Below, one piece after another: positions 43,368-48,656 of a stretch of 64,000 bases of DNA (positions are counted from its first letter, which is position 1; every line of letters begins with the position of its first letter). Both the position numbers and the translations under genes were made by a program. The stretch comes from Sphingobacterium rhinopitheci (GTDB taxonomy: Bacteria; Bacteroidota; Bacteroidia; Sphingobacteriales; Sphingobacteriaceae), in the NCBI RefSeq assembly GCF_022627575.1, contig NZ_JADEYQ010000001.1, positions 186,001 to 250,000 on the forward strand. Direction: 5' to 3'. The notes under the pieces are model-generated. The model searched no databases. It was not told where the DNA came from and was given only the letters and a program-made list of their open reading frames with translations.

Positions 43368-44369
43368 ATGAAGACATTAAAACTATCGGCACTAGAATTG
43401 GTGACCGTTACCAAGGGGAATAATCATACACAAGCAATACAAAGAGCCGTAGAAGGTGCTCAACATATAGAAAAATTAGGATACAATAGATTGTGGCTTG
43501 CGGAACATCACAATATGCCACATATTGCGAGCTCCGCAACAGCGGTACTCATTGGGCATATCGCAGGCAAGACCAATCAAATTCGCGTAGGCTCTGGAGG
43601 CATCATGTTGCCAAATCATACGCCACTAGTCGTTGCAGAGCAATTTGGGACATTGGAGAGCATCTATCCAGAACGTATAGATCTTGGATTGGGGCGTGCC
43701 CCAGGCACGGACCAAGCGACCGCGATGGCATTGCGACGTAATAATATGAATACATCATTCTATTTTAAAGATGATATTCTAGAGCTTCAACAATATTTGG
43801 ATGAGAATAATGCACATGCCACAGTACGCGCTTTCCCCGGCGAAGGGTTAGCTATTCCTATTTATATACTTGGCTCCAGTACAGATAGTGCCTATCTTGC
43901 TGCAGAGCTGGGCTTACCTTATGCTTTTGCGGCACATTTTGCCCCTGCTATGCTAGGGGAAGCGTCAAAAATATACCATGCACATTTTCAGCCTTCGAAA
44001 TATCTACAGAAGCCTTACTTTATAGCTTGTGTAAATATTGTTGCTGCGGATACCGTTGAGGAGGCTCACTTTTTAGCGACTAGCTTATTCAATATGTTTG
44101 CAGGGATACTTACCAATTTACGTAAACCATTGTCCCCTCCTACCGAAAAAGTAGTATACCATGGAATACCAGAACTGGAACAAGCGGTACTAAGCATGGT
44201 AAGCTGCACATTTATAGGTACCGAAAAAGAAATCAAAGAAGATGTATTATCTTTTGTTGATGAATATAATGTAGACGAAATCATGACAACAAATTATATA
44301 TTTGATGATAGTAAACGTTTAAAAGCGTTTGACATTATTGCTAAAGCATTATTATGTTCAGAAAAATAA
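43368..44369 (+). CDS. Luciferase-like flavin-dependent oxidoreductase
   Basis: LLM-class TIM-barrel flavoprotein of 333 residues. Typical segments are RLWLAEHHNMPHIASSATAVLIGHIAG, RVGSGGIMLPNHTPLVVAEQFGTLESIYPERIDLGLGRAPG and YILGSSTDSAYLAAELGLPYAFAAHF, the signature of the MsnO8/YhbW-like LLM subgroup. It probably uses FMN supplied by a reductase; the substrate is unknown. Its last 16 bases overlap the next gene. Confidence 0.9.
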   Translation: MKTLKLSALELVTVTKGNNHTQAIQRAVEGAQHIEKLGYNRLWLAEHHNMPHIASSATAVLIGHIAGKTNQIRVGSGGIMLPNHTPLVVAEQFGTLESIYPERIDLGLGRAPGTDQATAMALRRNNMNTSFYFKDDILELQQYLDENNAHATVRAFPGEGLAIPIYILGSSTDSAYLAAELGLPYAFAAHFAPAMLGEASKIYHAHFQPSKYLQKPYFIACVNIVAADTVEEAHFLATSLFNMFAGILTNLRKPLSPPTEKVVYHGIPELEQAVLSMVSCTFIGTEKEIKEDVLSFVDEYNVDEIMTTNYIFDDSKRLKAFDIIAKALLCSEK

Positions 44370-45148: not shown

Positions 45149-45178
45149 CATATATTATTATAACAGCTAGTCAAAAAA

Positions 45179-45212
45179 TAAAAGAGTCAAAATATTATAT
45201 TTGACTCTTTTA
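45179..45212. terminator. Bidirectional terminator between convergent genes
   Basis: The arms TAAAAGAGTCAAA and TTTGACTCTTTTA enclose an 8-base loop and are flanked by A-rich and T-rich tails. It ends both the plus-strand run and the pnuT-flavoprotein transcript. Confidence 0.8.
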
Positions 45213-45215
45213 TTT

Positions 45216-46304
45216 TTATTCAATATCGCGAATATTCAGTAAGCTATGTTGTGTGGCCGTAAACAAATTACGAAAGACAATATTAAGTTCTTGGTCCACT
45301 TGTGCCGCTTGGATACCTAGTAAAGGCATCAATATAGTAACAGCATTACGAATAGATTCGACAATATCTTTAAATTGCTTCGATATTTCTGCTAAGAAAG
45401 GGTCCTCCGCAGAAACCGTACCCGCTGCGGAAAGAACATTGACCATATCAGCGATTTCATTGACTACAGCACGATGATGCGCGAAGTTCTGTTGCAAACT
45501 ATCGAGCAATTGAAATCTAGATTTACTGTATTTATCGGCCCAAAAAGGGTCTTTAGATTTCTCAAAAAAATACTTTTCCGTAAGGTCTAAGAAACGTTTA
45601 TACATCCCCATGTAGTTCACCAATAATGTCAACTCCGCAAATGTCATAAATGGTATCCTATATAATGGACTATCGTAATATCTTTTACTTGGTGATAATA
45701 TAAATGCATTTGCCGCATCGACTTTCACGTTATCAAGGGAAAAACTATGGCTTGCAGTACATTCTAATCCGAATGTATTCCAATCGTAATGCACCAAAAC
45801 ATAATCACGAGGCACAAAGAAAGAATAAACTACAGGTTTACCATCTGCATCATGACGAGGAATATCTCCATCATAAACAGGCGCATTCAGCGTAAAATGG
45901 GACAAATGTGGTGCCCCCGTCGCAAAGGACCACATGCCGGTGATCTCAAAAGATCCATCTTTCCAAATCGCTTTACCTGCGGTTCTTCCTGACCCTCCAA
46001 AGCACACTTTGGCCGTACTAAATACTTCCTTGGCTTTGCTAGGTTCAATAAATCCTGCAAACATATTGGCTCCAGAACAAAGGGTAATGGTCCAAGCCAG
46101 TGCCCCATCGTGGTAAGCCAGCTCCTCCAACAAATTTAACCCTTGTTCAAAAGAATACTCCGCACCACCATATTCTTTGGGTACCCAAATATTAAACCAC
46201 TTGTTGTCATAGATAACTTGCAATTGGCTATTAACAAGAGCCTTTGCTGTAATACTTTCATATTGACTATCCCGTATTACTTGTATTTGTTCAGGTTGTA
46301 ACAT
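45216..46304 (-). CDS. Acyl-CoA-dehydrogenase-fold flavoprotein, resembling class D monooxygenases
   Basis: The 362-residue protein has the acyl-CoA dehydrogenase fold, but its motifs differ from true dehydrogenases. Instead of the TEP-type flavin loop it has GGSGRTAGKA (103-112), then GMWSFATGA (123-131), as in HsaA/DszC/HpaB-C2 hydroxylases. HSFSLDNVKV follows. The usual catalytic-Glu region is replaced by FRNLFTATQHSLLN with Arg345 and His353, as in class D flavin monooxygenases. It starts 3 bases after the pnuT stop and lies under a TPP riboswitch, so its substrate is probably thiamine-related. No flavin reductase gene is adjacent. Enzyme type is inferred. Confidence 0.8.
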   Translation of the reverse strand: MLQPEQIQVIRDSQYESITAKALVNSQLQVIYDNKWFNIWVPKEYGGAEYSFEQGLNLLEELAYHDGALAWTITLCSGANMFAGFIEPSKAKEVFSTAKVCFGGSGRTAGKAIWKDGSFEITGMWSFATGAPHLSHFTLNAPVYDGDIPRHDADGKPVVYSFFVPRDYVLVHYDWNTFGLECTASHSFSLDNVKVDAANAFILSPSKRYYDSPLYRIPFMTFAELTLLVNYMGMYKRFLDLTEKYFFEKSKDPFWADKYSKSRFQLLDSLQQNFAHHRAVVNEIADMVNVLSAAGTVSAEDPFLAEISKQFKDIVESIRNAVTILMPLLGIQAAQVDQELNIVFRNLFTATQHSLLNIRDIE

Positions 46305-46307
46305 ATT

Positions 46308-46913
46308 TTAGATAGGTTGATTATTGAAAATGCGCTTCCATTGGAAAAAGCCAAAAATAGCGACTATAAATAAAAATAAGGTAAGTGCAGCAAATAGATA
46401 AAGTTCCTTATGTATCTGTAAAGGTATAGCAAATAGGTTACTAATATTAAGCAATATCCAATTTTCAATTTTTCGTTTGGCCAGCAACCACATCCCAGCC
46501 CATGCTGTAGCGCTCACCCATGCATCCCATAAAGGTACATCAGAATCGGTAAATTGTGAAAGAATTAAATATAAAAAAGCAAATCCTAGAATACTAATAG
46601 CGGCAACAATGGTCCATTCGCGCCTATTGCAGTATGAGATAGGTTGTATTTGAGCTGATGTATTGATATTCCAATACCACCATCCATAGATGCTCATCAC
46701 GAGGTAATACATATTGAGCGCTATCTCTGCATAAAGTTTAGCACCAAATAATACATACATACCACTTAATATCCCTAATATACCAAATATATAGTTAGAT
46801 GATTTATTATTTTTTGAAAGTATAACTTGAATAATGCCACAAAGGACAGAAAATCTCTCTAACCAAGAGGTTTGGTAGAAAGCGGTTAGTAAATTTTCAA
46901 ATATTATTTCCAT
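46308..46913 (-). CDS. pnuT: PnuT-like thiamine transporter (PnuC family)
   Basis: PnuC-family facilitator with about seven membrane helices. From ATG 46913 it has 201 residues; an in-frame ATG at 46934 would lie inside an inverted repeat. The family landmarks are a repeated W pattern (YLVMSIYGWWYWN, SATAWAGMWLLAKRKIENWILLNISN), which forms the vitamin-stacking site. PnuC carries nicotinamide riboside, but members under a TPP riboswitch (PnuT) carry thiamine, and here the riboswitch lies just upstream. Phosphorylation by a cytosolic kinase would normally trap the vitamin; that kinase is not in the window. Confidence 0.88.
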   Translation of the reverse strand: MEIIFENLLTAFYQTSWLERFSVLCGIIQVILSKNNKSSNYIFGILGILSGMYVLFGAKLYAEIALNMYYLVMSIYGWWYWNINTSAQIQPISYCNRREWTIVAAISILGFAFLYLILSQFTDSDVPLWDAWVSATAWAGMWLLAKRKIENWILLNISNLFAIPLQIHKELYLFAALTLFLFIVAIFGFFQWKRIFNNQPI

Positions 46914-46943
46914 AAAAGTGTGTTTAATTAACAAACTACACTT
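46914..46943 (-). promoter_or_regulatory. Hairpin next to the pnuT start, possible riboswitch expression platform
   Basis: The arms AAGTGTGTTT and AAACTACACTT (one bulged base) enclose a 7-base loop and end 2 bases before the start codon. It lies between the riboswitch aptamer and the gene, so it could block ribosome access when TPP binds; this is inferred. Confidence 0.4.
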
Positions 46944-46975
46944 ATGAAAATGCTACTAAGACATTTATTATAAAA

Positions 46976-47060
46976 TCCCTACGCCAGCATTACCTGGATC
47001 AGGTTCCTTTCGAATAAATTCGAAATTGGGTATAATCTCAGCCTTATTAAAGAGACCGTC
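46976..47060 (-). ncRNA. TPP riboswitch (THI element)
   Basis: On the minus strand the aptamer core is clear: GGCTGAGATTATACCC, then a variable hairpin (CGAATTTATTCG), then GAACCTGATCCAGGTAATGC and TGGCGTAGGGA. These are the conserved pyrimidine-sensing and pyrophosphate-sensing parts of the thiamine pyrophosphate riboswitch. It precedes pnuT by about 60 bases, so binding of TPP should reduce transporter and flavoprotein expression. Boundaries are approximate. Confidence 0.95.
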
Positions 47061-47159
47061 TAAAAAATATCTAACCTATTTGCTAGAACAGAAAATACGA
47101 AAAAATACTTTTTAGACAGTGACCTTAATAGCACCCCATAAGTACTATATACTTATAAT

Positions 47160-48656
47160 TTATTTATCTAATTTCAATGATCGTTGTGAAGCCTCACGTA
47201 CCTTAGCACATAGCTCAGCATCATCATTTAATTTTTTACCCCATGAAGGTATCATCTCACGAAGTTTGGCTTTATATTCTTGTGAAGTAGCACGCTCTGG
47301 GAAACATTTTTTCAACAACTGAATCATGATAGCTACAGAGGTAGATGCCCCCGGAGAAGCGCCCAATAAAGCTGCTATAGAACCATCAGCACTTGATACT
47401 ACTTCCGTACCAAATTCTAATACACCGCCATGTTTAGGATCTTTTTTAATTACTTGAACACGTTGACCAGCAATTTCGATTTTCCAATCTTCCATTTTTG
47501 CTGTAGGCATGAATTGTTTCAAAGACTCTAATTTATCTTTTGGTTTTTTCATTACTTCAGTGATCAAATACTTCGTCAAATCTAAATTATCCAAACCTGC
47601 AGAAAGCATTGGTTTGATATTCGATAATTTGATAGAAGCAGGTAAATCAAAGAAAGAACCTTTTTTCAAGAATTTCGTAGAAAATCCAGCATATGGGCCA
47701 AACAATAATGCTTGCTCGCCATCAATATAACGGGTATCTAAGTGAGGAACAGACATCGGTGGAGCACCTACAGATGCTTTTCCATATACTTTTGCAGTAT
47801 GTTGTTTAATGACGTCCTTGTTTATACAACGCAACCATTGACCACCTACAGGGAAACCACCATAACCTTTAGATTCCGGAATTCCTGATTTTTCTAACAA
47901 TAGTAAAGAGTGACCACCAGCACCAATGAATACAAATTTAGCTTTGATATCACGTTTATCACCAGTTACTAAATCTTTAACTTCGACTTCCCAACGACCA
48001 TCATCTTCACGCTCAATATCTTTTACTTCTTGATTCAGCGATAAATTGATGTTATCCTTTTTTGCTAAATGATTAATTAAATCTCTCGTCAATTCACCAA
48101 AATTTACATCGGTACCGATTTCCATTTTCGTGGCAGCAATCGGTTCATTAGCTTGACGACCTTGCATCATCAAAGGAACCCATTTTTTCAACAGCTCAAC
48201 ATCTTCTGTGTATTCCATTCCTTTAAACAAGTTTTGCTTCGACATAGTCTCAAAACGCGTTTTCAAGAATTTAACATCTTTTTCACCAAAAACAGCACTC
48301 ATATGAGGCACTTTACGAATAAAGTGTTCAGGTTTTTTGATTATACCTTTCTCGACTAAGTAAGCCCAAAATTGCTTAGATATTTCGAATTGCTCCGCAA
48401 TGTTAATTGCTTTTTCAATTTTTACAGAACCATCCGCCTGTTCAGGCGTATAATTTAATTCGCAAAGAGCAGAGTGTCCTGTACCTGCATTATTCCATGC
48501 GTCTGAACTCTCAGCTGCTACTACATCTAATCGTTCTACAATCTCAATATTAACGTCGGGATTTAACTCATTGATAAGTGTACCTAAGGTAGCGCTCATT
48601 ATACCACCACCGATTAGGAGTACATCAACTTCTGTGTTTTGCTTTTTCTTACCCAT
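47160..48656 (-). CDS. mqo: Malate:quinone oxidoreductase
   Basis: Membrane-associated FAD enzyme that oxidises malate to oxaloacetate and reduces quinone, bypassing NAD-dependent malate dehydrogenase. The 498-residue protein has the N-terminal FAD loop VLLIGGGIMSATLGTLI (13-29) and Mqo signatures SSDAWNNAGTGHSALCELNYTP, MSAVFGEKDVKFLKTRFE, FIGAGGHSLLLLEKSGIPESKGYGGFPVGGQ and GASPGASTSVAIMIQLL. It is monocistronic in appearance. A gap of 263 bases lies upstream, and the TPP riboswitch follows downstream on the same strand without a clear terminator between them. Confidence 0.96.
   Translation of the reverse strand: MGKKKQNTEVDVLLIGGGIMSATLGTLINELNPDVNIEIVERLDVVAAESSDAWNNAGTGHSALCELNYTPEQADGSVKIEKAINIAEQFEISKQFWAYLVEKGIIKKPEHFIRKVPHMSAVFGEKDVKFLKTRFETMSKQNLFKGMEYTEDVELLKKWVPLMMQGRQANEPIAATKMEIGTDVNFGELTRDLINHLAKKDNINLSLNQEVKDIEREDDGRWEVEVKDLVTGDKRDIKAKFVFIGAGGHSLLLLEKSGIPESKGYGGFPVGGQWLRCINKDVIKQHTAKVYGKASVGAPPMSVPHLDTRYIDGEQALLFGPYAGFSTKFLKKGSFFDLPASIKLSNIKPMLSAGLDNLDLTKYLITEVMKKPKDKLESLKQFMPTAKMEDWKIEIAGQRVQVIKKDPKHGGVLEFGTEVVSSADGSIAALLGASPGASTSVAIMIQLLKKCFPERATSQEYKAKLREMIPSWGKKLNDDAELCAKVREASQRSLKLDK

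Follow-up and report, generated by a model that had tools for sequence, protein, structure and literature searches.

What does a flavoprotein of acyl-CoA-dehydrogenase fold do directly behind a vitamin carrier and a thiamine pyrophosphate (TPP) riboswitch? The question is raised by a locus of Sphingobacterium rhinopitheci that lies in a stretch of 64,000 nucleotides (assembly GCF_022627575.1, contig NZ_JADEYQ010000001.1, positions 186,001 to 250,000), which we call the window and whose minus strand holds three parts, all of them confirmed here: a TPP aptamer, a PnuT-type carrier and the flavoprotein. Our answer is that carrier and flavoprotein form a variant of a known operon in which an uncharacterised enzyme holds the position of the usual kinase, itself not detected; the substrate of this enzyme would be vitamin B1 (thiamine) or a compound derived from it, and its reaction an oxidative one. 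The three parts are the following, in window coordinates:

~46960 to 47145, minus strand: TPP riboswitch aptamer, longer than its Rfam match, delimited by the RF00059 match and by the canonical 5' half read from the sequence
46308 to 46913, minus strand: pnuT, a PnuC/PnuT-family vitamin carrier of 201 amino acids (PF04973, 166.7 bits), with its ATG at 46913 and its stop ending at 46308
45216 to 46304, minus strand: flavoprotein of 362 amino acids with the acyl-CoA-dehydrogenase fold, resembling group D flavin monooxygenases by its best PDB matches in sequence and fold

The flavoprotein gene opens with the ATG at 46304, three bases after the pnuT stop that ends at 46308, exactly as the original prediction had it, and no terminator-like site of the kind that, by that prediction, would set the flavoprotein apart from pnuT was found between the two genes in a consensus scan that asks for G+C pairs. 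For pnuT, an alternative in-frame TTG is present at 46934.

The carrier-flavoprotein pair across genomes

The pair was followed through a family sample of 151 genomes (Sphingobacteriaceae, as we infer), and the counts depend on the genomes drawn. The flavoprotein occurs in 77 of them, with one copy each, and its neighbourhood was read in all 77. In 71 of these, pnuT adjoins the flavoprotein gene on the same strand (70 by script and genome G001 by coordinates, a long ORF call having masked the adjacency there), and 58 have a TPP element upstream, either directly (38) or before a TonB receptor gene (20). This receptor, a relative of the one at locus L074, occupies the space that separates element and pnuT in all 20 cases (three receptors were checked with Pfam). 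The direct elements are made up of 36 found by script, that of G001, and that of G108 found by Rfam alone (E 0.04), and those before the receptor of 19 found by script and that of G062 found by Rfam alone (E 0.0011). The TPP pattern behind these counts agreed with Rfam at 33 of 33 loci and was confirmed at a further 10 of 10; across 1.22 million bases, a total in which overlapping loci are counted, it gave 59 matches, against none in one mononucleotide shuffle. It missed two of five pattern-negative loci, so that 58 of 77 is probably an underestimate. All three parts are present at six of the six named Sphingobacterium loci, one of which (L036) is the same locus as that of genome G090; this identity makes genus g1 of the sample Sphingobacterium, and the family assignment follows from it.

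The carrier follows the flavoprotein closely. A PnuT-type carrier is found in 72 of the 151 genomes, and each of these genomes also has the flavoprotein (in G037 the two are on different contigs); five genomes have the flavoprotein without such a carrier, and 74 have neither gene (Fisher p 1.6e-37, a value that ignores relatedness). Within the genera g14, g15 and g18, some genomes carry both genes and others neither. The original prediction had proposed that riboswitch, pnuT and flavoprotein form one neighbourhood, and the linkage proved to be stronger than supposed there and anything but rare, with 71 of 77 genomes for the adjacency, 58 of 77 for the TPP element and 72 of 72 carrier genomes for the flavoprotein. 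We are confident that carrier and flavoenzyme are functionally coupled to B1. Among the matches listed in the literature on PnuT, TPP riboswitches and thiamin salvage, a coverage that mostly excludes subscription papers, the pair of pnuT and flavoprotein is not described.

The unit is built in more than one way. In other genera the operon runs from TonB receptor to pnuT and flavoprotein, and in some it continues with genes for a phosphodiesterase, ThiE and a 188-amino-acid protein resembling thiamine pyrophosphokinase (TPK). At L074, L078, L080 and L083, longer operons carry varying subsets of phosphodiesterase, ThiE, this 188-amino-acid protein and an acetyltransferase after the flavoprotein.

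The flavoprotein and its carrier

The window flavoprotein reaches 22.3 bits against the Pfam N-terminal acyl-CoA dehydrogenase domain PF02771, for a cut-off of 22.9 bits, and the Pfam scan found neither a middle nor a C-terminal acyl-CoA dehydrogenase domain in it; among seven relatives including the window protein, six match PF02771 and one PF08028, with E values up to 0.01. A structure was predicted from the seven sequences (predicted local distance difference test 81.8, predicted template modelling score 0.84). By sequence profile and by fold, the closest solved relatives are group D flavin monooxygenases (XiaF, Rv3094c, HsaA): HsaA, XiaF, Rv3094c and C2-HpaH are matched in fold with Z scores of 31.3-33.7, acyl-CoA dehydrogenases with 29.8 at most. 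The putative Rhodococcus hydroxylase 2or0 gives 33.8, and the top matches as a whole (2or0, 3afe, 2rfq, 5mr6, 7f72 and 2jbs) span 32.6-33.8. The acyl-CoA-dehydrogenase fold given in the original prediction therefore stands at the level of the fold, but the nearest relatives are the group D oxygenases. An ordinary acyl-CoA dehydrogenase was rejected, with the Pfam domains under their cut-off and the oxygenases closer. On this modelled structure, the flavoprotein resembles a group D, that is, reduced-flavin-dependent, monooxygenase, and its chemistry may be that of an oxygenase.

The likeness to XiaF, HsaA, C2-HpaH and Rv3094c lies in a nearly whole-chain fold and in a conserved C-terminal histidine, H353, which is present in 78 of 78 aligned relatives and which we take to be the group D active-site histidine. 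The differences are as marked: the flavoprotein is only 15-21% identical to these enzymes, has no adjacent reductase gene, falls in a clade of its own, and belongs to a unit with a TPP riboswitch and a vitamin carrier. In a tree of 78 distinct proteins, which was a quick one and has long branches, the 56 PnuT-linked proteins all group within a single clade, which has 65 rows (Shimodaira-Hasegawa-like approximate likelihood ratio test 96); tree and residue counts draw on 103 loci, taken before the later L139-L176, and 22 of the 78 proteins have no pnuT in their locus. Nine residues are invariant in the 56 PnuT-linked proteins (W71, T74, C76, W125, W175, T226, N230, T349 and H353), and five of these positions, T74, C76, T226, N230 and T349, vary in the 22 others. 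As far as sequences can tell, such a pattern is what one shared substrate would give, although part of it would follow simply from these proteins being more closely related.

Relatives of the flavoprotein are also found in other surroundings. In family f8 (L092, L093 and L098), they lack pnuT and stand beside an esterase/peptidase-like protein of 430 amino acids (cluster c26; Pfam was run on the L092 copy), and at L092 and L093 a GMC oxidoreductase (c61) is also near. In genome G307 (L066 1231-1316, L107 5909-5994), a distant relative without pnuT and a TonB receptor are encoded on the same strand, with a TPP element between them.

The original prediction called the product of the upstream gene a PnuT-like transporter, and this is upheld by its PF04973 score of 166.7 bits, for a cut-off of 27.3, and by a match to the PnuC structure 4qtn (E 5.9e-10). 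It is the sole PF04973 match in the source genome. When the window carrier was searched against the 151 genomes, two separate groups appeared, the PnuT-type carriers at 170-437 bits and then a next match at 117. In eight of ten loci read, the weaker PF04973 paralogue is directly beside a NadR-like kinase, so that these paralogues are probably nicotinamide riboside carriers; the three such kinases checked match NadR profiles, below cut-offs. The comparison with PnuC-NadR uptake of nicotinamide riboside is instructive on both sides, as the superfamily is the same and the carrier is again paired with a processing enzyme, whereas the NadR-linked PnuC is a distinct, weaker-scoring paralogue found in many of the same genomes. 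The PnuT-type carriers, for their part, are linked to TPP elements and separate from the NadR-linked PnuC, and the window carrier would transport vitamin B1 or a B1-derived compound. Carriers of the PnuT type operate by facilitated diffusion, which calls for an enzyme that uses up what is imported.

A divergent TPP element and the probable end of the transcript

The aptamer is present, as had been predicted, at 49.0 bits; the boundary then given, 47060, cuts through the element, which reaches to about 47145. Rfam places its RF00059 match at 46959-47068 on the minus strand (E 7.9e-9 in 351 bases, E 2.0e-8 in the whole genome). The gathering score of RF00059, a curators' threshold and not a biological property, is 54.3 bits; because 49.0 bits is under it, a default Rfam scan of the window gives no match for the TPP element, and a relaxed threshold is needed. 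The conserved TPP core (CTGAGA, ACCC, ACCTGATC, GCGTAGGG) and the aptamer arms are present, and the canonical 5' half, GGGGTGC at 47137-47131, can be read from the sequence outside the shortened Rfam match. Two hairpins are nested in the element:

~47041 to 47132 (approximate ends), minus strand: long P3 hairpin between the aptamer halves, from the minimum-energy structure
47008 to 47025, minus strand: extra hairpin of 7 bp in the junction J2/4, TTTCGAA-TTTA-TTCGAAA (read from 47025 to 47008), from the minimum-energy structure

The region 46955-47165 folds with a z score of -4.6, and its minimum-energy structure contains P4/P5 and both of these hairpins. P1 and P2 are absent from it, which makes the outer ends of the aptamer (P1) an uncertain reading. 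As the reading of the upstream half suggests, the shortfall in Rfam score would come from the long P3, which Rfam did not span, together with the J2/4 hairpin.

The same plan recurs in the relatives. The related elements before pnuT or TonB receptors share the J2/4 hairpin with unrelated hairpin sequences, and their P3 hairpins vary in length and sequence. J2/4 exceeds 8 nt in 70 of the 74 distinct TPP cores of the fetched loci, with a median fold z score of -4.1 against mononucleotide shuffles. The four cores with a short J2/4 (listed as L001, L002, L044 and L189) include the elements of the thiC operon (5 nt) and of L042 (3 nt) in the source genome, and L044 is a pnuT-linked element from another family. 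The 31 pnuT-linked elements scored by Rfam, some direct and others separated from pnuT by a TonB receptor, all stay below the gathering score, with a range of 31.0-51.7 bits. Compared with RF00059, these elements have the conserved core and the position upstream of thiamine-type genes, and they differ by the extra J2/4 hairpin, the long P3 and scores below gathering. The aptamer thus reads as a divergent RF00059 riboswitch, which, to judge from its sequence, would bind TPP and control expression, and the low Rfam scores may explain why the link between carrier and flavoprotein escaped notice.

Two further structures mark the start of pnuT and the end of the operon:

46895 to 46962, minus strand: hairpin enclosing the pnuT start codon (fold z -3.7; 0 of 200 shuffles as stable), a candidate translational expression platform
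45174 to 45217, minus strand: A/T-rich hairpin followed by T, 3' of the flavoprotein gene (fold z -6.2), with no match in the consensus scan that asks for G+C pairs

The former could switch with the aptamer, and the latter is a probable terminator, perhaps common to the operon and the convergent gene.

Thiamine genes and the possible role of the flavoenzyme

The thiamine genes of the source genome narrow down what the enzyme may supply. This genome has four TPP elements, one of which precedes thiC, a TenI-like gene, thiD, thiE, thiG, thiH and a thiF-like gene, the others standing before a TonB receptor gene (unlinked to pnuT), before the pnuT operon and before the operon at L042. For ThiC, ThiG, ThiH, ThiD, ThiE and ThiF the match exceeds a Pfam or NCBIfam cut-off, with ThiD, ThiE and ThiF remaining under the stricter NCBIfam equivalog cut-offs, and a canonical ThiL is present. 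Neither ThiM (PF02110) nor TenA was found in the source genome. Canonical TPK (PF04263) was found in none of the 151 family genomes, source genome included, in a search confined to that kinase family; PF04263 matches in 41 of 80 genomes of the phylum sample and in Bacteroides ihuae, taken as a control. The operon at L042 (10958-8149, minus strand) is an odd one, with a methyltransferase and AIRS/ThiL-like, ThiE-like and Trm112-like proteins behind its TPP element.

The known operon to which the pair is to be compared ends with tnr3, whose product is presumably TPK. In gut Bacteroidetes, according to one study, OMthi, pnuT and tnr3 form one operon in most genomes, genetic evidence identifies PnuT of Bacteroides thetaiotaomicron as a thiamine transporter, and deletion of pnuT or OMthi in a biosynthesis mutant raises the thiamine need about tenfold, single deletions being without effect; the tnr3 product is there named thiamine pyrophosphorylase (PMC5613172). 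That operon shares with ours the TPP riboswitch, PnuT and the TonB receptor (linked in 20 of 77 genomes and unlinked in the source genome), and it differs in that canonical TPK was not found in our family sample and the flavoprotein occupies the place of tnr3 behind pnuT. B1-type carriers are found under TPP elements in a family in which no canonical kinase was detected, and this makes the flavoenzyme a candidate for the missing step. It is a natural place for it, because it is present in every carrier-bearing genome and no TPK was found.

A possible course of events can be drawn from these elements. At low TPP, the divergent riboswitch would permit production of PnuT and of the flavoenzyme; PnuT, as an inner-membrane carrier, would import B1 or a B1-related compound, and the flavoenzyme, in the place of TPK behind pnuT, would pull the import by chemical conversion. 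It would oxidatively release or repair the pyrimidine half, at the level of hydroxymethylpyrimidine (HMP), and ThiD, ThiE and ThiL would then convert this half, with thiazole made de novo, into TPP. The parts of this scheme do not deserve equal credit. We lean towards an oxidative conversion of the imported B1-related compound, and regard the wider picture of a TPP-repressed operon for uptake and processing of vitamin B1 or a B1-derived compound, in which the flavoenzyme acts on what PnuT imports, as evenly balanced between right and wrong. A bolder proposal, namely that the flavoprotein is a new flavin- and oxygen-dependent B1 salvage oxygenase that replaces the trapping step of TPK, under a TPP riboswitch subtype with sub-gathering scores and an extra J2/4 helix, is tentative and on the whole unlikely. 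That the pyrimidine half in particular is released is slightly more doubtful still, even though it would be the most usable product because the genome has ThiD, ThiE, ThiL and thiazole synthesis and gave no ThiM, TenA or TPK matches. For the original suggestion of a thiamine salvage route not well described, the thiamine context holds (TPP elements, TonB receptor, and thiE in some operons), but the carried compound, the substrate of the enzyme and the oxidation or opening of a ring are to be understood as proposals. If the chemistry holds, an oxygen-dependent route would be added to B1 salvage, and a function given to proteins whose likeness to acyl-CoA dehydrogenases stops at the fold.

A number of observations weigh against this scheme. 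Thirteen of the 71 adjacent pairs have no TPP element (nine were scanned with Rfam over at least 4 kb, and G003, G057, G072 and G078 by the pattern only); eight of the 13 are in genus g4, and in the two read closely (L073 and L089) pnuT abuts mqo. The flavoprotein is kept without PnuT in five genomes, two of which (G017 and G039) place it outside the PnuT clade. A flavoprotein match is found in 34 of 395 genomes of the phylum sample, 25 of them outside the family, and only five of the 21 loci examined there (the four genomes left out had weak matches) are PnuT-linked, four by script and G531/L097 by eye, with a TPP element in four of the five. The co-occurrence of carrier and flavoprotein is partly a product of their linkage, because one deletion removes adjacent genes together. 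The operon contains no flavin reductase gene, the search for one having been confined to linked genes. TenA is positively associated with the flavoprotein (21 of 77 genomes with it against 6 of 74 without, the TenA match of G102 being a fragment). A thiamine kinase may also exist, because ThiK and the other kinase families were outside the search.

This last point leads to an explanation in which PnuT imports intact thiamine, a kinase outside the TPK family phosphorylates it, and the flavoprotein repairs oxidised thiamine or disarms thiamine antagonists that use the same carrier. It accords with the thiamine transport ascribed to B. thetaiotaomicron PnuT by genetics in the study cited (PMC5613172), and with kinases of ThiK type lying beyond the kinase search. 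It also has a candidate kinase in the 188-amino-acid protein, which begins with MSSHH, is present in 129 of the 151 family genomes (for example L123 5637-6200 and L074 3399-3965), stands beside thiE in several loci, and resembles TPK by hhalign with a probability of 66% (E 5.5e-5, a single comparison). This protein nevertheless has no GDxDS motif and is present also where PnuT is not, and it gave no match in Pfam or NCBIfam and no convincing one in the PDB; canonical TPK was found in none of the 151 genomes searched. A detoxifying accessory would moreover be expected to be dispensable, yet not one of the 72 PnuT-type genomes is without the flavoprotein. We consider this explanation rather unlikely, at about the level of the release of the pyrimidine half. 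A further alternative keeps the pyrimidine and changes the cargo: in this lineage the carrier would have given up thiamine for a breakdown product, for instance 4-amino-5-aminomethyl-2-methylpyrimidine or the N-formyl derivative of it, which the flavoprotein would turn into HMP, replacing TenA and YlmB. The source genome, with ThiD and without TenA, ThiM or TPK matches, would suit it, and nitrososynthases of acyl-CoA-dehydrogenase fold, enzymes that oxidise amines, are among the fold matches (4zxv, 3mxl). TenA and the flavoprotein are not mutually exclusive, however, as their co-occurrence above makes clear, so that the flavoprotein is not a simple TenA replacement, and we find this cargo improbable. 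With ThiM there is no association (13 of 77 against 8 of 74, p 0.35, a count without the ten genomes whose PF02110 matches are all weak, though over the cut-off in two).

It may finally be asked whether the flavoprotein is a chance passenger on the transcript, or a partner of the neighbouring mqo. In 9 of 47 neighbourhoods, the window included, this gene immediately precedes the unit on the same strand, and at L073 and L089 it touches or overlaps pnuT, no TPP element being present. Many genera nevertheless have the unit without mqo, either by itself or after a TonB receptor gene, and the flavoprotein is found in all 72 PnuT-type genomes. A mere chance neighbour was rejected on the adjacency in 71 of 77 genomes and the 72 of 72 carrier genomes, and we regard both the passenger and the mqo partnership as most improbable.

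In the window, mqo (malate:quinone oxidoreductase, 47160-48656) is directly upstream of the operon on the same strand. On the opposite strand, about 0.8 kb past the operon, lies the gene of a luciferase-like flavin monooxygenase of the MsnO8 family (43368-44369), and four of the six named Sphingobacterium loci have the corresponding cluster, c9, close to the operon.

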